Below the pieces are notes generated by a model. The model was not told the DNA's origin and did not search any database. It was given only the letters and a program-made list of their open reading frames with translations. Shown here in pieces: positions 4,902 through 21,656 of a DNA stretch of 21,656 nucleotides. Origin of the DNA: a virus; the IMG/VR virus record IMGVR_UViG_3300033144_002361, positions 1 to 21,656 of that record. One strand, given 5' to 3'. Both the position numbers and the translations under genes were made by a program. The number at the start of each line of letters is the position of its first letter. Positions within the stretch are counted from its first letter, which is position 1.

Positions 4902-5750
4902 ATGCCAGATCCAATACCAAATCCTAATGACGTAAAGCCCGCAGCCGGTACCGTCATACCGACTCCTCCAGGTGGGACACCTGCACAGCCAACTCCGGCG
5001 GCTGAACCAAAGCCAGGAGCTACTGTTATACCTACGCCTACACCGGTCACTCCGGCAATACCAGCGAGTGTAACAGCTACGCCTACACCCGGGGCGGTTA
5101 AACCGAGTGCATCGCCAACTCCCGGCGTTAAACCAGAGCCCGTGCCAAGTGGCACAGTACCCATCACTGCACTGCATGAAGAGAGGACAAAACGCCAAGC
5201 GTTGGAAACCGAAATGACGCAGTTGCGGGACATGGTGACACAACGTGGTTATCAGCAACAAGCAACACAAGAAGCTCAGCCCAATCAGATGCAAAAGGAG
5301 ATTGAGCAATTGTGGGACACTGATCCAAGGAAAGCAGTTCAAGCCGAGATAATGGTCGCTATGAACTGGAGAGACTCAGTTGAAGCTAATCTTAGCTCTC
5401 AAGCGAGTGAACTCTCAGGCAAGTACACAGACTTTAATACTTACCGGAACCAAGCTGAGACGTATGTGCGAAGCTTGCCGTTGGACCAAAGGTCTGACCC
5501 CAGGGTAATGGAGGTGGCGTATCTTGTTGTGAGAGGTCAAAACGTGGATAGCATCATGGAGAAGCAGAAGAATGATCTCTACCAGCAGTTCCAGAAGGGT
5601 GAGTTTGTAGGCACTACTCCCGCTCCCGGAACATTCACAGCACCGGCAGCTACCGGGGCGATACCGCTAACTCAAGATCAGATTAACGCTGCGACTGCGA
5701 TGGGTATGACACCGGAAGATTATGCCGGTCAAATACAGGCACCTAAATAG
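4902..5750 (+). CDS. Capsid scaffolding protein (probable)
   Basis: 282 residues between portal and major capsid genes, the standard place for a scaffold that guides prohead assembly and then leaves. Residues 1-88 are a Pro/Thr/Ala low-complexity arm (repeats such as VIPTPTPVTPAIP). Residues 90-118 form a coiled coil beginning ITALHEERTKRQALETEM. Residues 127-235 are helical and charged, ending VDSIMEKQKNDLYQQFQKGE. The C-terminal segment LTQDQINAATAMGMTPEDYA (256-275) is like the short helical tail by which scaffolds hold the capsid protein. The start follows TAGGAGC. The long proline arm is unusual. No protease motif is visible, so cleavage of the scaffold by a window-encoded protease cannot be inferred. 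Confidence 0.72.
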   Translation: MPDPIPNPNDVKPAAGTVIPTPPGGTPAQPTPAAEPKPGATVIPTPTPVTPAIPASVTATPTPGAVKPSASPTPGVKPEPVPSGTVPITALHEERTKRQALETEMTQLRDMVTQRGYQQQATQEAQPNQMQKEIEQLWDTDPRKAVQAEIMVAMNWRDSVEANLSSQASELSGKYTDFNTYRNQAETYVRSLPLDQRSDPRVMEVAYLVVRGQNVDSIMEKQKNDLYQQFQKGEFVGTTPAPGTFTAPAATGAIPLTQDQINAATAMGMTPEDYAGQIQAPK

Positions 5751-6012: not shown

Positions 6013-6843
6013 ATGGCAAAGTTTAAATATTGTATTGACGGATCAGAGTTGGTCATCAAAGACCTTCCTGCACAACCTGATACATACAACGACGGTGAGA
6101 TTCTGGCCGCTGGTGTCGCTGAAGATGGTGCGATCGCTAGTCAAGGAGTTGGAACCGGTGCGTTTGTAGGTGTATCAAATCAAGGCGAGACACTACCTGC
6201 CCAGAGTGGATATAGCTCTGCGGGTACTACACTCGGAAATGATGGGGCAACCCTTGCTGGAACGCAAGCAGCTGGAACTCTCGATACCTTAAAGGTCATC
6301 GTTAACCCGGGTGCGATTTACGCAATCCAGTATGACACAGACTCTCCAATTACTTGGGGAACTGTCACTGATACCACAATTCCTTACACCTGTACATCTG
6401 GTGTTGGTGTTGCTGGCTTTGGTGGAGGCTGGGCCTATTCAACTGATACTGGTGAGTTTGATTATGTTGTGAGTTCTGCTGTTGTGACAACGACTTGTAC
6501 GTTGACCACAGTTACCGGAACAAACACTGCGTCTAACACTGGTGTCTTGATTTCACAAGCAGGAACGGGATTAAGCCAAGTTGTGCCTTTAACGGCAGAT
6601 GCTTTACGCATTGAAGCTGGCGAGATCGACATTGATGGACTAACAGCTGGAACTGACTCTCTTGCTCTCACGATTCTTGAGAACAGAGTTGAGTCCGTTT
6701 TCCAAGGTAGCGAGATCATGCGACCAAAGAAAACTGCTGGTTCTGGTGGATTGGAAAATCAAGCAGTTCGAACACTAGGAACCAAAGACTTCACTAAGAT
6801 TTTCGCTTATGCGAAGATTGAAGGGAATGTCTGGAATAAATAA
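6013..6843 (+). CDS. Probable capsid-associated (decoration-like) protein
   Basis: 276 residues, immediately before the major capsid gene, with ribosome site AAGGAG at 5999-6004. It is rich in Gly, Thr, Ala and Val and predicted all-beta. The N-terminal part (ILAAGVAEDGAIASQGVGTG, then LDTLKVIVNPGAIYAIQYD around 93-112) resembles proteins found beside capsid genes in podovirus-like phages that fold as small beta barrels. The C-terminus has a more ordered charged part (GLTAGTDSLALTILENRVES, then RTLGTKDFTKIFAYAKIEGN). No helical scaffold or protease features are seen. A decoration/stabilisation role is inferred from position and fold type. Confidence 0.55.
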   Translation: MAKFKYCIDGSELVIKDLPAQPDTYNDGEILAAGVAEDGAIASQGVGTGAFVGVSNQGETLPAQSGYSSAGTTLGNDGATLAGTQAAGTLDTLKVIVNPGAIYAIQYDTDSPITWGTVTDTTIPYTCTSGVGVAGFGGGWAYSTDTGEFDYVVSSAVVTTTCTLTTVTGTNTASNTGVLISQAGTGLSQVVPLTADALRIEAGEIDIDGLTAGTDSLALTILENRVESVFQGSEIMRPKKTAGSGGLENQAVRTLGTKDFTKIFAYAKIEGNVWNK

Positions 6844-12067: not shown

Positions 12068-12399
12068 TGGCAACAACAGATAAAGATCATGTGTTCATAG
12101 ATGAAGCCATACGGGTTAGTACAACCGTAAACTCTACTGTTGCCGATACCGGAGAGTTCAGTGCTGAGACTATCGTTGTGTATAACGACCTCGATAAGAG
12201 TGTTGATATACAGCTTCAGGGCTCTATGGATCAGACCAACTGGATAAACATAGGCAGTGCTTTTACCTTAACCACGCTGGAGAAGGACTACGCTACGGTA
12301 ACTGATTTCTTTCCTTGTTATCGTGTAACAGCCAAGTGTGCAACAAGCCCAACGAGTGGTGATCTTAATGTATGGATACTTAAAGCAGGAGCATCATGA
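12067..12399 (+). CDS. Beta-sandwich protein, carbohydrate-binding-like
   Basis: 110 residues, linked by TAATG before and ATGA after. The pattern FSAETIVVYNDLDKSVDIQL, QGSMDQTNWINIGSAFTLTT, then FFPCYRVTAKCATSPTSGDL and NVWILKAG resembles bacterial and phage surface beta-sandwich domains in which a 'QGS-D-TNW' strand turn is followed by 'YRV-A' and a 'SG-L-V' strand. I compare it, by memory only, with DUF6385-like domains. Two cysteines could pair. Probable structural or glycan-binding module. Confidence 0.62.
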   Translation: MATTDKDHVFIDEAIRVSTTVNSTVADTGEFSAETIVVYNDLDKSVDIQLQGSMDQTNWINIGSAFTLTTLEKDYATVTDFFPCYRVTAKCATSPTSGDLNVWILKAGAS

Positions 12400-12599
12400 G
12401 TTTAAATAAAGTTGGTGGAGGGAGACAAATTGAGAAATCTAAAATACTTAGGGTTACTCTTCCTCGTACTAATCCTAATATCAAGTCCGATATTGATGCT
12501 ATCCTCGACGACGGATGGCATCTTACAACCAGTACTTCTTTTGTCGATGGTGCAGATACCGAGATACTCTTCGTCTTTATCAAGCCCAAAAGAAACTGA
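12396..12599 (+). CDS. Small alpha/beta protein (DUF4177-like by eye)
   Basis: 67 residues, starting in an ATGA overlap. One compact unit: a strand (KILRVTLPRTN), a helix (NIKSDIDAILDDGWHL) and a final strand pair (TSTSFVDGADTEILFVFIKP). The 'ID-IL-DGWHL' helix followed by strand and 'FVFIKP' is the shape of small proteins of the DUF4177 kind, which have no known reaction. Most of its length is overprinted by the 12430-12708 reading frame. Confidence 0.6.
   Translation: MSLNKVGGGRQIEKSKILRVTLPRTNPNIKSDIDAILDDGWHLTTSTSFVDGADTEILFVFIKPKRN
12417..12424 (+). promoter_or_regulatory. Internal ribosome binding site for overprinted gene
   Basis: GGAGGGAG at 12417-12424 lies inside the 67-residue gene, five bases before the TTG at 12430. 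It has no use for the 12396 frame and is the main evidence for the out-of-frame start. Confidence 0.45.
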
Positions 12600-12708
12600 G
12601 GATGAGAGAATTGAACGGGTTCAGAAGTTGTTAAGGAGAGTAATGAGAATGAAGCTAGGAATTAAACCAGGCAAGGTTCAATACGTGGAGGGATGGGGAT
12701 GGCTATAG
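12430..12708 (+). CDS. Overprinted signal-anchor membrane protein
   Basis: 92 residues from TTG 12430, in a different frame from the 12396 gene, with a strong internal ribosome site. The product begins RNLKYLGLLFLVLILISSPI, a textbook signal peptide or N-terminal membrane anchor, followed by a Ser-rich linker and a charged helical tail (ETEDERIERVQKLLRRVMRM) ending YVEGWGWL. No lipobox cysteine. The non-overlapped part (12600-12698) would otherwise be an unexplained gap, and the end overlaps the next gene by 10 bases. The nested layout recalls Rz/Rz1-type lysis genes. A shorter alternative is ATG 12643 (21 residues, AAGGAG at 12633-12638). Confidence 0.5.
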   Translation: MRNLKYLGLLFLVLILISSPILMLSSTTDGILQPVLLLSMVQIPRYSSSLSSPKETEDERIERVQKLLRRVMRMKLGIKPGKVQYVEGWGWL

Positions 12709-12914
12709 CATGGGCAGGTGAAGTTAAATCAGTAGAGCAGACAGTAGCGATCATTGAAGCAGTAGGGAATGCGATACCGGAAGCAGCACCGGTTATGCAA
12801 GCGGAGCCTAACATGAACTTCTGGCCTCTACTTGCCATAGCAGTTATACCGGTTGTTCTTGCACCTTTCATAGCTATGTGGATTAAGAAGAGGATGCAAC
12901 ATGGGAAGCGTTGA
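12699..12914 (+). CDS. Small membrane protein (holin-like candidate)
   Basis: 71 residues. ATG 12699 is chosen over ATG 12693 because GGAGGG (12687-12692) touches 12693 but is properly spaced from 12699. The N-terminal half is amphipathic and Ala/Glu/Val-rich (VKSVEQTVAIIEAVGNAIPE), the C-terminal half is one membrane helix (FWPLLAIAVIPVVLAPFIAM, about 42-61) and a basic end (WIKKRMQHGKR). One TM with positive C-terminus is compatible with a holin or a small membrane accessory protein. Its end overlaps the next gene by 14 bases. Confidence 0.58.
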   Translation: MAIAWAGEVKSVEQTVAIIEAVGNAIPEAAPVMQAEPNMNFWPLLAIAVIPVVLAPFIAMWIKKRMQHGKR

Positions 12915-13161
12915 ACTATACGCCACAGGCGTAGGGACAGCCGTTGTAGTCATAGGAGCAGTCAGTGTTATAGCGAGAGACTGCCGGGGAAAGATAGCGG
13001 GTATGTATAAACGGTTTGATGAGCATAAGAAAGATCTCAGGGATACTCACGTTAGCAAGGAGGTACACGATCTTAAGTACATCCAGCTCAAAGGTGACAT
13101 TGATGAAATCAAAGGTGATGTCAAACAATTGTTAAGGAAAGCTAACGGAAAAAGTGGGTAA
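12901..13161 (+). CDS. Membrane-anchored coiled-coil protein
   Basis: 86 residues. Residues 7-24 (ATGVGTAVVVIGAVSVIA) are a membrane segment; after a Cys/Lys-containing turn (RDCRGKIAGMYKRFDEHKKD) the rest is a charged coiled coil (KYIQLKGDIDEIKGDVKQLL). This 'TM then coiled coil' design fits XhlA-like or i-spanin-like phage membrane proteins, though orientation cannot be proved. It follows the 12699 membrane gene with a 14-base overlap, suggesting joint function. Confidence 0.58.
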   Translation: MGSVELYATGVGTAVVVIGAVSVIARDCRGKIAGMYKRFDEHKKDLRDTHVSKEVHDLKYIQLKGDIDEIKGDVKQLLRKANGKSG

Positions 13162-13969: not shown

Positions 13970-16900
13970 ATGGCTGGGAATGATAGTAATACAAAACTGC
14001 TGTTGCATGCCAACGCTGGAAACACCGTAAAGAGTGCGTTCTGCCATATGATCATGGAGAACAACACTGACAGCGGGAGTGGTGCGAATGCTGTCACTAA
14101 TATCGGTACGCCTACTTACACTGCTGGACAGATCGGTAATGCCCTTACCTTGACAACTGACCAAGCATTAAACATTGATGCTTTACGTACAGATATAATA
14201 AATGATACTACAGGTTCTTTCTCCTTTTGGGTAAACCCAGACGCAGTACCACCAGTAGGTTTTGGCGATATAATTACTTTTGGGGACACTAATGCAGATT
14301 CTGCCTTCAGTATTTCCCAATCATCAGTAGTAAATAGGTTAACTGTAGGCTTGCAGGAGAGTGCAGGAAATATAGTATCTTGGCTGATGCCAGTACTAAC
14401 TGCAACATGGCAACACATTGCTATTGTCCAAGATGGTGTGGCATTAAAAGTATATAGGAATGCCGTAGATGTTACAGACCCTAGTCCCACTGAAACTGGA
14501 ACAGGTACAATAGATAAGTGGTTTAGCTACGGAAGTGCTGTATGGGATAACGGGAGAATTGGATGTCGTGATTACGCCAGCCAACCAACCCAATTCTTCT
14601 TTGAGGGACAGATAGATGATGTTCGTTATTACCAAGCCTCAGTCCTTTCCCAAACAGAAGTAACAGCTCTCTACAACGCAGGTACTGGAACAGAGAACTC
14701 CATCATCATAGACGCTTCCACTCATGATGACCTTCCCTTCTCACACATGGCTCTTGAGGACAACACAGATGATGGTACTGGTGCTAATCCTGTTACGGAC
14801 ATTGGAACTCCTACGTACACAGCAGCGACAGGGGCTTCTCAGCCGACTCTTAACAATGCTCTTACCCTTGATGGTTCGACAGATGCTTTGAACATTGATG
14901 CTTTAGCTAATGACATTAAAACAGATACCACAGGGTCAGCATTCGCTTGGGTTAACACTAATGACATTTTAGGTGGCGAGAGAATCTTCACTATAACTTC
15001 TGACACAACAGATACCGAGTTCTATCTTCAAATTACAGGGTCTTCTCTTCAAGCATCTTTGGCAGAGGCTGGTGTTGAATCATGGAATATTACTGGTGGT
15101 GGAATATCAGCAAGCACTTGGCATCATGTTGGAATTGTCCATGATGGTAGAGCACCAAAGCTTTATCTTGACGGAGTTGAGGTGGGTTCTTTTGGTATAA
15201 CCACAGATACGTCTCAATGGCTAAATGACCTAGCATTGCTGGACACAGGAAGGATTGGTTGTAGGAAGGTAAACGGAACTCCTAACGGTAGTTTCTTTGA
15301 CGGACAGATTGACGACTTCAGATATTACAGACTTGCCTTAACACCAACCCAAGTAACCAACCTCTACAACTCTGGTACCGGTACTGAAACAGCCGCGACT
15401 TCAGGTGGCAACAATCCTCTCGTACAAACCTTTGCTGATGCTCAGATCCAAGAGAGTGTAGGTGGAGTACAGGTTGTTCCCGATGCTGAGAGCTTTGGTG
15501 GGTATGCCCAGTTTGATGGTTCGACTAGCTATTTGACTGTTCCTGATTCTACAGACTGGGATGTCGTGGGGAATGCTGGCGATGACTGGACAATAGATTT
15601 ATGGGTGAGGCACGATAGCGTTACTGGGTCAAAGCATTATATAAATCAATGGCAGGATGCCAGCAATAGATGGAATCTCCTCCATCAAAACACTAGAGGA
15701 ATTGGATTTAGTGCTCAGTCAACAGCTGACGGAGTCTTTGTTCAGATTACTTCTGCTGTTGGACAACCGGGTTTAATAGAGGACACAGAGTGGCATCACG
15801 TTGCTTTGATTAAAGTAGGTCAGGATTATGGAACGTATTTAGATGGCGTTATGTCGGGCTACGCCCTTGGAACTGCTACCGCGACATTTTCAGCTGTCTT
15901 ACAAATAGGACAGATTAACAGTATCCAATACTTCCCGGGGAGCATGGATGAGTGCAGGATTTCCTCAACCAATATATTCTCTGGTGCTCCTGACGCTGGT
16001 CTAACTGACACTATTACAGTTCCTACTTCTCCGGCTGTTGGCGGTGCTGCAACGCGTATACTCTTAGCTAATGATACTGACGTAACCACAGACACCGGAG
16101 TCAATACTCACACGGTAACCAACGTTAGCGGTAATGTTGACTTCAAGCCAGGTGGCAAGTGGAACAGTGCATCGCTTACGTTTGATGGGACAGGGGATTA
16201 CCTCTCTATTCCTGACTCGGCTAATTGGGATATACTCGGAAGCAATACATCTGACTACACTCTTGATGTGCAAGCGGCTCACAGTGGGAATCCTTCAGGG
16301 GCAGAACATTATTTAAGTCAGTGGGAAGATGCGAGCAATCTATGGTTATTTCTTCATAACAATGGCTTGCAGTTCTATGCCGCTGATGCAGGAAATGCGT
16401 ACTGGAGCTTTACTTCTGCTGGAGTTCTAGGTACAAAAATAGAAGATTCTAATTGGCATCACGCAGCCTTTATAAAAACTTCTTCCCGTTATGGTTTATA
16501 TCAAGACGGAGTTCAAGTTGCCTATCAATGGGTTCCCCAAACAATGACCTTATCTGCTCCACTAACTGTTGCACAAAGAGGCAACAATACGCAATTACTT
16601 ACAGGCAACATGGATGAAGTCCGAGTCCAAGCCGACAACTACTTCGTAGCCGCACCAAACTCTTTCCCTGCTGCTCCGTTGCTTATCTATGGAGATTCCT
16701 TGAAGGGTGGGTATGGAGAGTTTGACGGGACAGATAGGCTTACCATCCCTGATCATGCTGACTGGTCTTTTGGTACGGGGGACTTCGTAATAGAGACGTG
16801 GGTAAGGTTTATTGATAAAGCTTTCGATACTCGAGCCCCATTTTGGATGCACGACAATATCGCTGATGCGGACGAATGGGTAGCATGGAGGATTATTGCC

Positions 16901-19294
16901 AGCTCAGAGATATTGCAGTTCTTTGTGTACAATGGTACGGTTCTTGTATTAAACATTACAGATACATGGATACCAGAGAACGGTGTTTGGTATCACATCG
17001 CTGTAGTCAGGTCTAGTGGCGACATCACGCAATTTGTGAACGGTGTTGCATTGGGCAGTCCGGTAACCTTTGCATCTGCTTTTCCTGATCCCACAGGAGA
17101 TCCCGTTATTGGCCATTCAGATACTGAGGCAGATTTCTTGAACGCAGACCTCGATGAGTTCCGTGTATCTAAAGGAACAGACAGGGGATGGAGCTCAGGC
17201 TTCACGCCTTCAACGTCACGATACCTCTCCGACACTGACACAAAACTTCTTATTCACTTTGACCAAAGCGTTGCAGGAACATGGATTGACTACGGTAATA
17301 CCGTACACACGATCACTAACACTGGCGTAAACTCTTCTATACAGAATGAAGGGTATGGAGATTCTCCTGCGAGCATTGCTGGTACAGCAGCATCGATTCC
17401 GGTCACAGCGTTCACTCACATGGTTATGAATGGAGCAAGCACGGATACCGGGACAGGAGCCAACGCTGTTGTAGATATTGGCACACCTACATACACAGCC
17501 GGACACTTGAGCAGTGCATTGACGCTTAATGGTACGGATCAGGCTCTAAATCTTAACGCTCTTGAAATAGATATAGATACTGACACTGCTGGCTCAGTCT
17601 CGGCATGGTTTAACACGAATATAAACACAACAACTCAGACGATCTATGCCCTTAGTGATTTGAGTGCTACAAATGTTTGGATTAGAATTACTTTATTTAC
17701 TACAGGTAATTTAACTGTGGCTGCCTCTAACGCCGCTGGGACAGTGCAGTGGCGTCATGATTCTTCAGGGATAGTAGCGAGCACTTGGTATCACATTGTG
17801 GTTGTTCAGGACGGAGTTTCTCCGAAGATATATTTAGACGGGGCAGACATAACTAATCTTACAACAACGACAGATGAAACTTGGTGGAACAACAATGGGG
17901 TTGCTTTCTATGACAACGTCAGAATCGGTCAGCAAGGTGAATCTACTAATCTTAACTGGTTTGACGGACAGATAGACGACTTCCGTTATTACAGACAAAC
18001 TCTTAACGCTAAGAACATTGCAGACATCTATGCCTTAGGCGTAGGCACAGAGACCGACATGCACGTCGGCCCGATCAATGATGACACTGCTCTCTTCTTC
18101 GATGGCAACAGCGATTTCCTAACAGTCACCGATACCAGTGGTACGGATTATGACATTGTTGCAAGCACAACTGACAGTTGGACAATGGATGCCTGGATAA
18201 GGTTGGACGATGATGCTGGTGCAAAGACTGTTTTACAACAGGAAGAAGTCGGGTTGTTGATGTGGAGATGGTATCATGCTACTCCACCTTTTGGTATGAC
18301 GTTTGGTGCTTGGAATACTGCAGTTGTTATGACCAATGGGAATATGATTACTGGGAATCCTATACCCGTTGGTAAATGGACGCATGTTGCTTGGGTAAAA
18401 GTAGGAGACCAAGTAGGCATGTATACTGACGGAGTTCAAGATGCTTACGATACCGTTGCTAACCCAGGGGCATTTAATGCAAGTTTGTTTGTTGGTAAGC
18501 AAACAGCTGGAAGCTTTTTTGACGGCAACATGGAACAAGTCCAGATCACCAAGGCTAACAAGTTTGGGGTGGTGCCGTTGCCTGAGCCGTATCTTAAGTA
18601 TAATATGAATGACAACTTAGCAACGACAGTTGTTCTTGATACTGGATCTGGTGGGTTTAATGGAACAACGGTTGGCGGTAATACAGACACGTTCTCCACT
18701 ACTGGTAAATTGCCAACGGCAGCACCCTTAGGATTTAACTTTGATGGTGCGACTGATTGGATCACAGCTGATGGTGCTGTTGCGAGTATCGTAACAGATA
18801 CAACTGGAACACTCACAGCATGGATAAATCCAGATACGTTATTACTTGGAGATTCATATATCTTTGCATTATCAAATACTGTAGGAATTAACCCGGCAAC
18901 TGTTTTCTCTACATTCAGGACATTGTTGGGTAAGTTCAACTTCAATGTCTTCCAGAGCGGAGGTAACTTAACGACTATTACGAGCAATGGTATATTAGTA
19001 GCAGGTGCTTGGAATCATATAGCCGTTGTTCAAGACGGTGTTCAAGCGGTGCTTTATCTCAATGGAGTTGCTGACACAGCCACCGCAGCAATAGGTGGGT
19101 CGCATTGGTTTGCAGACATGGTATTCCTTACTCCTGACGTACTTCGCATTGGAGTTTTGACACGAAATATCGGAGAAACAGGGCATTACGCTGGGAAGCT
19201 TGATGATGTTAGGTATTACCGGAATGAAGCCTTGTCAGCATCACAGATACAATCTCTTTACAGCAGAGAATCAGAAGAGTGGGGAGAGATTTAA
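13970..19294 (+). CDS. 1,774-residue LamG-domain array, fibre-like
   Basis: ATG 13970 with AAGGAG at 13958-13963. Eight concanavalin-A-like LamG domains, approximate residues 23-243, 255-476, 510-674, 731-894, 913-1072, 1148-1364, 1376-1533 and 1542-1774. Each has a 'W-HI/HV-V-DG---YLDG' strand (examples: TWQHIAIVQDGVALKVYRNA, TWHHVGIVHDGRAPKLYLDG, NWHHAAFIKTSSRYGLYQDG) and ends in 'GQIDD-RYY' or 'GNMDE-R'. Domains 1, 2, 6 and 8 share a 'GANAV-DIGTPTYTAG...ALNIDAL..DI-TDTTGS' start (weaker in 8); domains 3, 4 and 7 share 'FDG--DYL--PDS-DWD'; domain 5 is intermediate. LamG domains usually bind glycans or proteins with calcium. Size, context and absence of a catalytic motif suggest a tail or capsid fibre that binds cell-surface sugars. 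Beta-strand-only, no coiled coil or signal peptide. Confidence 0.85.
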   Translation: MAGNDSNTKLLLHANAGNTVKSAFCHMIMENNTDSGSGANAVTNIGTPTYTAGQIGNALTLTTDQALNIDALRTDIINDTTGSFSFWVNPDAVPPVGFGDIITFGDTNADSAFSISQSSVVNRLTVGLQESAGNIVSWLMPVLTATWQHIAIVQDGVALKVYRNAVDVTDPSPTETGTGTIDKWFSYGSAVWDNGRIGCRDYASQPTQFFFEGQIDDVRYYQASVLSQTEVTALYNAGTGTENSIIIDASTHDDLPFSHMALEDNTDDGTGANPVTDIGTPTYTAATGASQPTLNNALTLDGSTDALNIDALANDIKTDTTGSAFAWVNTNDILGGERIFTITSDTTDTEFYLQITGSSLQASLAEAGVESWNITGGGISASTWHHVGIVHDGRAPKLYLDGVEVGSFGITTDTSQWLNDLALLDTGRIGCRKVNGTPNGSFFDGQIDDFRYYRLALTPTQVTNLYNSGTGTETAATSGGNNPLVQTFADAQIQESVGGVQVVPDAESFGGYAQFDGSTSYLTVPDSTDWDVVGNAGDDWTIDLWVRHDSVTGSKHYINQWQDASNRWNLLHQNTRGIGFSAQSTADGVFVQITSAVGQPGLIEDTEWHHVALIKVGQDYGTYLDGVMSGYALGTATATFSAVLQIGQINSIQYFPGSMDECRISSTNIFSGAPDAGLTDTITVPTSPAVGGAATRILLANDTDVTTDTGVNTHTVTNVSGNVDFKPGGKWNSASLTFDGTGDYLSIPDSANWDILGSNTSDYTLDVQAAHSGNPSGAEHYLSQWEDASNLWLFLHNNGLQFYAADAGNAYWSFTSAGVLGTKIEDSNWHHAAFIKTSSRYGLYQDGVQVAYQWVPQTMTLSAPLTVAQRGNNTQLLTGNMDEVRVQADNYFVAAPNSFPAAPLLIYGDSLKGGYGEFDGTDRLTIPDHADWSFGTGDFVIETWVRFIDKAFDTRAPFWMHDNIADADEWVAWRIIASSEILQFFVYNGTVLVLNITDTWIPENGVWYHIAVVRSSGDITQFVNGVALGSPVTFASAFPDPTGDPVIGHSDTEADFLNADLDEFRVSKGTDRGWSSGFTPSTSRYLSDTDTKLLIHFDQSVAGTWIDYGNTVHTITNTGVNSSIQNEGYGDSPASIAGTAASIPVTAFTHMVMNGASTDTGTGANAVVDIGTPTYTAGHLSSALTLNGTDQALNLNALEIDIDTDTAGSVSAWFNTNINTTTQTIYALSDLSATNVWIRITLFTTGNLTVAASNAAGTVQWRHDSSGIVASTWYHIVVVQDGVSPKIYLDGADITNLTTTTDETWWNNNGVAFYDNVRIGQQGESTNLNWFDGQIDDFRYYRQTLNAKNIADIYALGVGTETDMHVGPINDDTALFFDGNSDFLTVTDTSGTDYDIVASTTDSWTMDAWIRLDDDAGAKTVLQQEEVGLLMWRWYHATPPFGMTFGAWNTAVVMTNGNMITGNPIPVGKWTHVAWVKVGDQVGMYTDGVQDAYDTVANPGAFNASLFVGKQTAGSFFDGNMEQVQITKANKFGVVPLPEPYLKYNMNDNLATTVVLDTGSGGFNGTTVGGNTDTFSTTGKLPTAAPLGFNFDGATDWITADGAVASIVTDTTGTLTAWINPDTLLLGDSYIFALSNTVGINPATVFSTFRTLLGKFNFNVFQSGGNLTTITSNGILVAGAWNHIAVVQDGVQAVLYLNGVADTATAAIGGSHWFADMVFLTPDVLRIGVLTRNIGETGHYAGKLDDVRYYRNEALSASQIQSLYSRESEEWGEI

Positions 19295-20030: not shown

Positions 20031-20231
20031 ATGGAAACAGATCCAAACTTTTTACAGGCAGTATTAAGTAACCAATGGGTCAGTTGGATTACGGCAGCAG
20101 TAACAGTCGCGGCAGCTATCACAATGGTTACACCATCAAAAGTAGATAATGAATGGTTACAGAAAATCGTTTCATTATTAAACTTGCTTGGTCTTAACAT
20201 AGGCAAAGCAAAGAATGCGGATGACAAATGA
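20031..20231 (+). CDS. Holin-like small membrane protein (candidate)
   Basis: 66 residues with AAGGAG at 20018-20023. An acidic/polar start (ETDPNFLQAVLSNQW), a single membrane helix VSWITAAVTVAAAITMVTP (about 17-35), and a charged amphipathic C-terminus (EWLQKIVSLLNLLGLNIGKA). The second stretch may be a membrane-surface helix. Small size, membrane segment and position before a lipoprotein gene fit a holin, but length and topology are not decisive. Ends in ATGA overlap with the next gene. Confidence 0.55.
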   Translation: METDPNFLQAVLSNQWVSWITAAVTVAAAITMVTPSKVDNEWLQKIVSLLNLLGLNIGKAKNADDK

Positions 20232-20422
20232 TACAGGCAATCGGAGCTTTCTTTAAAATAGTTCTATTCTTCTTGAACTTGAACGGAGAGTCAAACAAGA
20301 AGAAGGCTAAGGAGAAAGCTGAAATAGGAAAGGAGTTAGTCGATGCAATGTCGGAAACTAATAAAGCTCGGCGTGCTTCTCATGTCAACGCTGCTATTGG
20401 TAGGATGCGTAACGTTCGGTAG
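20228..20422 (+). CDS. Mini i-spanin-like protein (candidate)
   Basis: 64 residues from an ATGA overlap. A short hydrophobic N-terminus (IQAIGAFFKIVLFFLNLN, 2-19) is followed by a very charged helix (ESNKKKAKEKAEIGKELVDA, MSETNKARRASHVNAAIG) ending in a basic tail. This is the inner-membrane plus periplasmic-helix plan of an i-spanin, but much shorter than usual. Its last 80 bases overlap the lipoprotein gene, the arrangement seen for Rz/Rz1 pairs. Function is inferred from this pairing. Confidence 0.5.
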   Translation: MIQAIGAFFKIVLFFLNLNGESNKKKAKEKAEIGKELVDAMSETNKARRASHVNAAIGRMRNVR

Positions 20423-20543
20423 TAAGCAAGTTATGCTATATCCAATAGAGCCGACAGACATCTACTTCAAGGACAATGGAGATGTTTGCATGTCAGAGTT
20501 CTATTTCAACGAAGTATTGCAGGTGAAACTAAAGGAGAAATAA
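20343..20543 (+). CDS. Spanin-like outer-membrane lipoprotein (candidate)
   Basis: 66 residues. ATG 20343 uses AGGAG at 20331-20335, inside the preceding gene. Residues 1-21 form a lipoprotein signal (MQCRKLIKLGVLLMSTLLLV, then GC), with lipobox LVGC and the lipidated cysteine at 22. The mature 45 residues begin CVTFGSKQVMLYPIEPTDIY and continue with FKDNGDVCMSEFYFNEVLQV. A lipobox shows that the host has a lipoprotein pathway, and the overlap with a preceding TM gene fits an o-spanin that bridges to the outer membrane. It lacks the Pro-rich stretch of classical Rz1, so another envelope role is possible. Confidence 0.62.
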   Translation: MQCRKLIKLGVLLMSTLLLVGCVTFGSKQVMLYPIEPTDIYFKDNGDVCMSEFYFNEVLQVKLKEK

Positions 20544-20544
20544 A

Positions 20545-21300
20545 ATGAATCGAGGAACACTCAGGAGTAGAATTAGAAAGAAGTTGGGTGAGACTACCTC
20601 TGCGTTCTGGACGGATACTGAACTTGATGATTACATCAATGACGGATGCAGAGACATCGCCTTCAGAACGAAGTGCCTACGAGGTAACACTCATATTTCT
20701 ACGGACGATTGCTCACAGAACATTGTGGCTGAGGGATTTCAAGAGATCTCCTTCTTGTCAATTGATTCGGAGATCTATTCTGTTCTTGAAGTGTACTTCC
20801 ATGAAGCAGGTCAGAATTGGATTAAGCTGGAACCTTCTAGTCGGACAGAGTTGGACTTACTCAATGCCGGCTGGAAGGATGCAGTTGGTCGAACAGATCC
20901 ACAGGTTGCCTTCCCCGATATAACGTATAACTACCAGGACGAGGCGGGAACACCCACTCATTATTACTGGGATCGTGAGGAAGACTTGTTTGGGTGGTGG
21001 GTACCTACTGATACGGAACAGACAACTGCAGACAACATGCGTATCTACTACACCAAACAACATCCGAACATGTCCTCTGATGCTACTGTTCCTACTATTC
21101 CCCAAGCGTTGGAATTAGCTATCATAGATTACGGGATAGCTCAGGGTTTAGAAGACCGGCAGTGGCTTGACCGAGGCAATGACCGTTGGACAAAATACTA
21201 CGCACGTCTCGACTCCTACATGGCAGAGAGAAATCGTGAGGTAGAGGATGAAGACCTGATTATGAAGGGCTACAAAAACGTACAATATAGGAACTCATAA
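20545..21300 (+). CDS. Head-tail adaptor protein (gp4-like, probable)
   Basis: 251 residues, ribosome site AAAGGAG at 20532-20538. The N-terminus RGTLRSRIRKKLGETTSAFW, TDTELDDYINDGCRDIAFRT is the typical start of phage adaptor proteins that dock beneath the portal: a first helix, 'FWTD-EL-DYIN-G', and another helix. A central beta region (EISFLSIDSEIYSVLEVYFH, GWWVPTDTEQTTADNMRIYY) and a C-terminal helical part (VPTIPQALELAIIDYGIAQG, then DRWTKYYARLDSYMAERNRE) fit the family layout. It would extend the portal and hold the next closing protein. Its 3' end is inside the 60-bp tandem duplication; TAA is shared with the duplicate's ATG. Confidence 0.75.
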   Translation: MNRGTLRSRIRKKLGETTSAFWTDTELDDYINDGCRDIAFRTKCLRGNTHISTDDCSQNIVAEGFQEISFLSIDSEIYSVLEVYFHEAGQNWIKLEPSSRTELDLLNAGWKDAVGRTDPQVAFPDITYNYQDEAGTPTHYYWDREEDLFGWWVPTDTEQTTADNMRIYYTKQHPNMSSDATVPTIPQALELAIIDYGIAQGLEDRQWLDRGNDRWTKYYARLDSYMAERNREVEDEDLIMKGYKNVQYRNS

Positions 21301-21406
21301 TGCCTGATTCAGAACTACAACAATGGTATGTCAAGATAGCACCCGGATAGGAACTCATAATGCCTGATTCAGAACTACAACAATGGTATGTCAAGATAGC
21401 ACCCGG
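21287..21406 (+). repeat. Perfect 60-bp tandem duplication
   Basis: Bases 21287-21346 are repeated exactly at 21347-21406. The unit contains the last codons and stop of the adaptor gene and the ribosome site (AGGA), ATG and first 16 codons of the next gene. Copy 1 therefore makes a 16-codon ORF (21300-21350, stop TAG), and copy 2 gives the full gene at 21360. Because 60 is a multiple of three, copy 1 and copy 2 are in the same frame, parted by that TAG. It is recent or an assembly error, since no base differs between copies. Confidence 0.95.
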
Positions 21407-21656
21407 TATGAACAACAAGACCGAGGACTTAGACCTTGGAGACAAGTGGGTTCAGCTCGCACAGAACTGCCGGTTTGAGAATGAGCCGAGGTCTGTGACC
21501 AAGCGAGAGCCGGTTACTTATTACAACCAAGACTTCACTGGATTGATTGGTGGTGACGGTGATGCAGAGGTCTCCGGTCTATACCGGTTCTATGCCGGTG
21601 GAACTGGTTACTTTCTTATGGTGCACAAGACAACCTGTTACGTTGGGAACGATGCA
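21360..21656 (+). CDS. gp10-like stabilisation/neck protein, partial
   Basis: Ninety-nine codons are visible and the gene runs off the window. It begins MPDSELQQWYVKIAPGMNNK, then LGDKWVQLAQNCRFENEPRS, VTKREPVTYYNQ and beta repeats (SGLYRFYAGGTGYFLMVHKT). 'W-K-APG-N-KT--LDLGDKW-Q-AQNCRF' is the start I associate with the protein following the adaptor in podovirus-like phages, comparable with packaged-DNA stabilisation protein gp10 or other beta-propeller-type neck proteins. The start is in copy 2 of the duplication. Assignment by order plus beta-rich sequence is moderate. Confidence 0.6.
   Translation, partial: MPDSELQQWYVKIAPGMNNKTEDLDLGDKWVQLAQNCRFENEPRSVTKREPVTYYNQDFTGLIGGDGDAEVSGLYRFYAGGTGYFLMVHKTTCYVGNDA

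Follow-up and report, generated by a model that had tools for sequence, protein, structure and literature searches.

A small tailed-phage gene with a conserved C-terminal module very probably starts inside the +1 frame of a DUF4177-like neighbour

Does a short frame that begins inside one small phage gene and runs on past its stop codon encode a protein, and, if so, where does translation of that protein start? The question is raised by positions 12430-12708 of virus record IMGVR_UViG_3300033144_002361, which was analysed over its whole length of 21,656 nucleotides (the window). This 21.7-kb record belongs to a tailed phage with an SU10-like portal, a large terminase and a capsid protein. Displacement of a start codon is known to create same-strand overlaps in phase 1 (PMC2542354, PMC3887535). 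Among 338 prokaryote genomes, however, no co-directional overlap longer than 60 bp was judged real, and such long overlaps mostly reflect 5' ends predicted too far upstream (PMC2478687). Codon evidence therefore matters here.

The genes and sites of this locus all lie on the + strand. The enclosing gene (12396-12599; the host gene below) starts in an ATGA overlap with the preceding gene, behind a ribosome site (SD) of -6.6 kcal/mol, and codes for 67 aa with a predicted soluble b-a-b-b fold of DUF4177-like topology (AlphaFold2 pLDDT 81). Its maximal hydropathy (KD17) of 1.03 agrees with the initial annotation, which had described it as not membrane-like. The likeness to DUF4177 (PF13783) is one of topology alone, the window protein having no Pfam match, and the gene at the same position in contig L006 scores 15.7 bits against this family, below the cut-off of 25. 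Six contigs, the window included, have a small gene at this position with a common GW motif. The solved structures most like the host model (KCTD H1 domains, MinE and ACT-like domains, Z 6.5 or less) match it at the level of common arrangements, and no homology to them is proposed.

The overlapping gene (12430-12708) is in the +1 frame of the host gene, and from an inferred TTG start it has 92 codons before a stop that ends 109 bases beyond the host stop. It begins LRNLKYLGLLFLVLILISSPI, and its overprinted N-terminal part (12430-12599) carries the hydrophobic segment LGLLFLVLILISSPILM, preceded by two positive residues and with a KD17 of 2.67; TM segments were judged here and below by hydropathy alone. 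The 92-aa product has no cysteine and no lipobox. Upstream, the SD GGAGGGAG (12417-12424), which falls in the host codons for VGGGR and forms a duplex of -9.8 kcal/mol, is separated from the TTG by ACAAA. The strong ribosome site five bases before a TTG and the membrane-signal-like N-terminus that had drawn attention to this frame are thus both present. The space that it was said to fill beyond the host gene, an otherwise empty 99 bases, has that length if the next gene starts at ATG 12699, and measures 93 bases if it starts at ATG 12693.

Evidence that the frame is translated comes from its other end. Its last 37 codons (12595-12705), nearly all beyond the host stop, form a conserved module, TEDERIERVQKLLRRVMRMKLGIKPGKVQYVEGWGWL (12595-12708 with the stop), which ends KLLRR..RMKLGIKPGKxxYVEGWGWL and finds matches in contigs L001 (IMGVR_UViG_3300033388_003055; E 2.4e-15) and L006 (E 1.3e-11). 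These relatives were reached only via neighbour genes: L001 was found through the host protein, and L006, together with L005, L007 and L009, through flanking conserved genes. The three contigs share the pattern TE....KLLR...RM.L.I...K..YVEGWGWL. In the last 27 codons the window differs from L001 by 13 synonymous and 3 nonsynonymous codons and from L006 by 11 and 8, respectively, and this comparison of three sequences identifies the module as a protein-coding gene under clear purifying selection. AlphaFold2, given an alignment three sequences deep, predicts a helix (residues 57-76) followed by a beta-hairpin, with the last 30 residues at a pLDDT of about 90, and leaves residues 22-51 of the 92-aa product below 50. 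In a Foldseek search the module model matched no viral structure significantly, the module found nothing beyond chance matches in the phage collection, and the full 92-aa protein used alone as a query against viral contigs found nothing. A DNA pattern for YVEGWGW led back to L001 and L006 and otherwise hit four unrelated contigs. The host, 12067 and 12693 proteins had no match in the phage collection by tblastn, nor had the 11.5-13.5 kb region by blastn. Two scans of bacterial and archaeal genomes, one for each family, gave one 19-residue match for the 13336 family, in a genome without the module, and nothing for the 12693 family.

Conservation also extends upstream of the last 27 codons. Over the eight codons that precede them, window and L006 differ at third positions only (0, 0 and 5 differences at the three codon positions, with one two-codon gap set aside), and therefore translation begins upstream of 12595. 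Since the module frame has no ATG, GTG or TTG between 12550 and 12628, the gene very probably begins inside the host gene, with an overlap of at least 50 nt, unless it uses a rare start codon or is reached by frameshifting. The same codons bear on a shorter product initiated at ATG 12643 or ATG 12649, which would not overlap the host gene. Strong SDs stand before both codons (-9.2 and -9.6) and before ATG 7957 of L006 (-11.6), but the SD at the same place in L001 is weak (-3.7), those of 12643 and 12649 coincide with the conserved LLRR codons, and the codons ahead of these internal ATGs (TEDE..ERVQKLLRR), which include the eight-codon stretch with its third-position changes, are conserved as protein. 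We regard such a short product as improbable. Still less probable is a +1 ribosomal frameshift near the host end, by which the module would be fused to the DUF4177-like protein. It would fit the fact that in each of the three contigs the module is in +1 phase to the gene upstream; that phase, however, may be common by descent, or be expected by chance in one case out of three, no recognised +1 slippery site was seen by inspection at the host ends (AAC TGA G, AAT TAA C, AAG TGA A), and L001 has its own GTG just past the host stop, with an SD-like site of -5.6.

Eight start codons are available upstream of the module: TTG 12412, GTG 12415, TTG 12430, TTG 12493, ATG 12496, TTG 12541, ATG 12547 and GTG 12550. 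TTG 12430 is favoured because it is the only one with an SD (-9.8, as against -2.2 or weaker for the others), and it is further supported by the fact that the genes of this phage mostly have SDs, with a median of -7.2 over 35 called genes, most of which it exceeds. We infer that TTG 12430 is the best start of the gene, which would bring the probable overlap to 170 nt. Pairing of 12418-12425 with 12458-12465 could hide the SD, but such a hairpin is no stabler than those of shuffled sequence (z -0.37). The principal rival accepts the gene and places its start further in, at ATG 12547 (53 aa; the main version) or ATG 12496 (70 aa), perhaps with the help of ribosomes translating the host gene, so that the product would be soluble and the hydrophobic stretch an untranslated coincidence. 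These starts have in their favour that they are ATG codons, TTG being a weak start codon, that the 12547 product resembles that of L006 in length and hydrophilic character (KD17 0.03), and that 5' over-extension is the commonest annotation error (PMC2478687). On the other hand, neither of these ATGs has an SD (0.7 and -0.2 kcal/mol), although the phage relies on SDs for most of its genes, and there is no nearby host stop from which reinitiation could take place. An inner start is in our judgement unlikely, although it deserves more weight than a short product or a frameshift.

The features around TTG 12430 were also weighed against chance. Of the 1170 start-like codons that the + strand holds, 1.2% are preceded by an SD of -9.8 kcal/mol or stronger, and among 558 starts of unannotated ORFs of at least 25 aa (196 and 362 on the two strands of the window) TTG 12430 is the only one to combine an SD of -8 or stronger with a KD17 of at least 2.2. 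When the codons of the host gene were permuted synonymously, 7.5% of cases had no stop in the frame between 12430 and the host end, equal hydrophobicity was reached in 1.3-1.5%, and both together occurred in 0.06%. The effective significance of these figures is weaker, since the region was chosen for looking odd. An equally strong SD appeared in 68% of the permutations, owing to the VGGGR codons, and the +1 frame was hydrophobic even when permuted (median KD17 1.78). The SD and much of the hydrophobicity are thus by-products of the residues of the host protein, and the origin of the hydrophobicity is a further point in favour of an inner start. The +1 frame of L001 also reads LILISSLILI despite the stops that close it, and its KD17 of 2.25 equals its own null (permutation median 2.24).

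The relatives show which part of the gene is conserved. In L001 the module gene is an 80-aa frame opened by GTG (5209-5451), which begins just past the host stop at 5204, and its N-terminus is weakly hydrophobic (KD17 1.12); the frame that matches the overlap is closed by stops. Stops in close relatives had been named in the initial annotation as evidence against the gene. Those of L001 affect the overlap only, and L001 is not close, its host protein being 57% identical over the best segment (pS 0.80, pN 0.27). The module gene of L006 likewise overlaps the gene upstream of it in +1 phase; that gene is strongly divergent, and the N-terminus of the module product is hydrophilic. The hydrophobic overprinted N-terminus is therefore absent from both module relatives found, and the signal-like N-terminus is not a family feature. 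For the overlap region L001 is the sole relative that can be aligned, one that is itself non-overlapping and saturated at synonymous sites. With three sequences and no outgroup, gain of a start in the window line and an insertion in the L001 line are both possible.

The place occupied by the module gene varies between contigs. Its slot, flanked by the DUF4177-like gene on one side and by the conserved single-TM gene on the other, is a hot spot for the swapping of small envelope genes: at 1960-2193 in L007 and 7673-8029 in L009 it holds unrelated short lipoprotein-like ORFs with lipobox-like signals, and that of L009 is also opened by a TTG behind a strong SD (GGAGGA, -10.2). The TTG of L009 and the lipoprotein-like character of these ORFs both speak for an anchored product from TTG 12430. 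The gene that closes the slot in the window (12693-12914; 73 aa, one TM segment, KD17 2.72) is its conserved anchor in L001, L006, L007 and L009. The following gene (12901-13161) codes for an N-terminal TM segment (KD17 2.13) and then a charged region, with weak XhlA-like similarity far below cut-off (E 0.064). L001 shares the small-gene cluster with the window, yet nothing over its 40 kb matches the window capsid protein. The cluster may be exchanged among phages whose heads differ; alternatively, the L001 capsid gene may be too divergent or missing from the fragment. Downstream of the cluster in the window lies a 1774-aa protein (13970-19294) with several repeats of a domain common to virion structural and baseplate PHROGs, whereas a related 1325-aa protein of L003 lies upstream of it. 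Near the end of the window, a 60-bp tandem duplication (21287-21413; 2.1 copies, 97% identical) copies the start region of the 21360 ORF together with its ribosome site.

Membrane peptides nested in the genes of soluble proteins are familiar from phiX174, where E lies in D, and from MS2 L, and the lambda spanins Rz and Rz1 combine an out-of-frame overlap with a signal-bearing product. Leviviruses have sgl genes that encode small membrane proteins in the +1 frame of rep, the gene of a soluble protein (PMC7693330). The window frame resembles sgl and phiX174 E in having an SD (-9.8) and a hydrophobic segment (KD17 2.67) in an alternative frame, and lambda Rz/Rz1 in its out-of-frame overlap and signal-bearing product. 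A lysis function, one of the roles named in the initial annotation, could also draw on the membrane-protein neighbours and on the L001 slot, since homologs of the membrane and lipoprotein genes at 20031-20543 of the window are found about 1 kb away from it. The differences weigh more. Unlike sgl, the hydrophobic part is followed by a conserved soluble module, and it is on this module that conservation falls, in a dsDNA tailed phage. Unlike Rz, the enclosing gene does not code for an i-spanin with N-terminal TM segment and periplasmic coiled coil, given its predicted b-a-b-b fold and maximal KD17 of 1.03, and the nested product lacks a lipobox cysteine and matches no spanin or other lysis family. 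A probable Rz/Rz1-like pair that fits better lies elsewhere in the window, with an N-terminal hydrophobic segment and charged helix at 20228-20422 and an out-of-frame lipoprotein ORF at 20343-20543 (LLLVGC; phrog_8971 Rz-like spanin, E 0.0062). Furthermore, among 158 levivirus ORFs chosen by length, SD and TM segment, a minority was active on expression (PMC7693330). The lysis claim thus finds no support here, and of the explanations considered it is the least probable. L001 has a pair similar to that at 20228-20543, at 6452-6649 and about 6576-6770 (phrog_456, E 0.017). The single-TM protein at 20031-20231, which matches phrog_9685 (E 6.1e-08) and weakly DUF7940, is a possible holin; its L001 homolog (6237-6452) adjoins the slot.

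Start-shift overlaps offer a closer parallel. In those of PMC3887535 and PMC2542354, as in the window, the downstream gene is in +1 phase, its body lies beyond the upstream stop and its start falls in the upstream gene; moreover, the L001 homolog has a non-overlapping start (GTG 5209) and the same conserved body beyond the upstream stop. The locus differs in that its overlap has a length (at least 50 nt, probably 170 nt) that is unusual among credible cases and in that the borrowed stretch encodes a strong hydrophobic segment. What had been taken for an overprinted gene is real and very probably does start in the host gene, but only its N-terminal part, about 57 codons, is overprinted: the locus is a case of a small gene whose start codon has shifted into its neighbour, and not of a gene overprinted along its full length.

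The account that we favour, and consider on the whole somewhat better than evenly placed, is that the small gene with the 37-aa module, between the DUF4177-like and single-TM genes, starts at TTG 12430 in the +1 frame of the former and yields an anchored membrane or envelope accessory protein. The SD provided by the VGGGR codons of the host gene would drive synthesis of the 92-aa protein from this TTG. To judge from its hydropathy and preceding charges, the overprinted N-terminus would act as an N-in signal anchor that inserts in the inner membrane and holds the helix-hairpin module there, plausibly as a lineage-specific device of the window phage. The most likely role would be that of a small accessory protein of the membrane or envelope, produced along with the two predicted membrane proteins encoded next to it (12693 and 12901); the nearness of the L001 cluster to homologs of the 20031-20543 genes would fit such a role. 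Against this account stand the weakness of TTG as a start codon and the finding of only two module relatives, neither of which has the hydrophobic overprinted start. As a less likely reading, the conserved soluble module may more than once have taken new N-termini from the +1 frame of whatever small gene lay upstream, and in the window lineage it would have met a ready-made anchor, because the residues of the host protein impose an internal SD and make the +1 frame hydrophobic.

The YVEGWGWL module names a family of small phage proteins that appears to be undescribed, and an N-terminus drawn from a DUF4177-like gene appears to be without precedent as well. A start within the neighbour is supported by conserved codons together with the absence of any later start codon. 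If TTG 12430 is indeed that start, the locus would be a clear case of a membrane-targeting sequence obtained from the alternative frame of a neighbour, with its SD and much of its hydrophobicity supplied by the residues of the protein encoded there.
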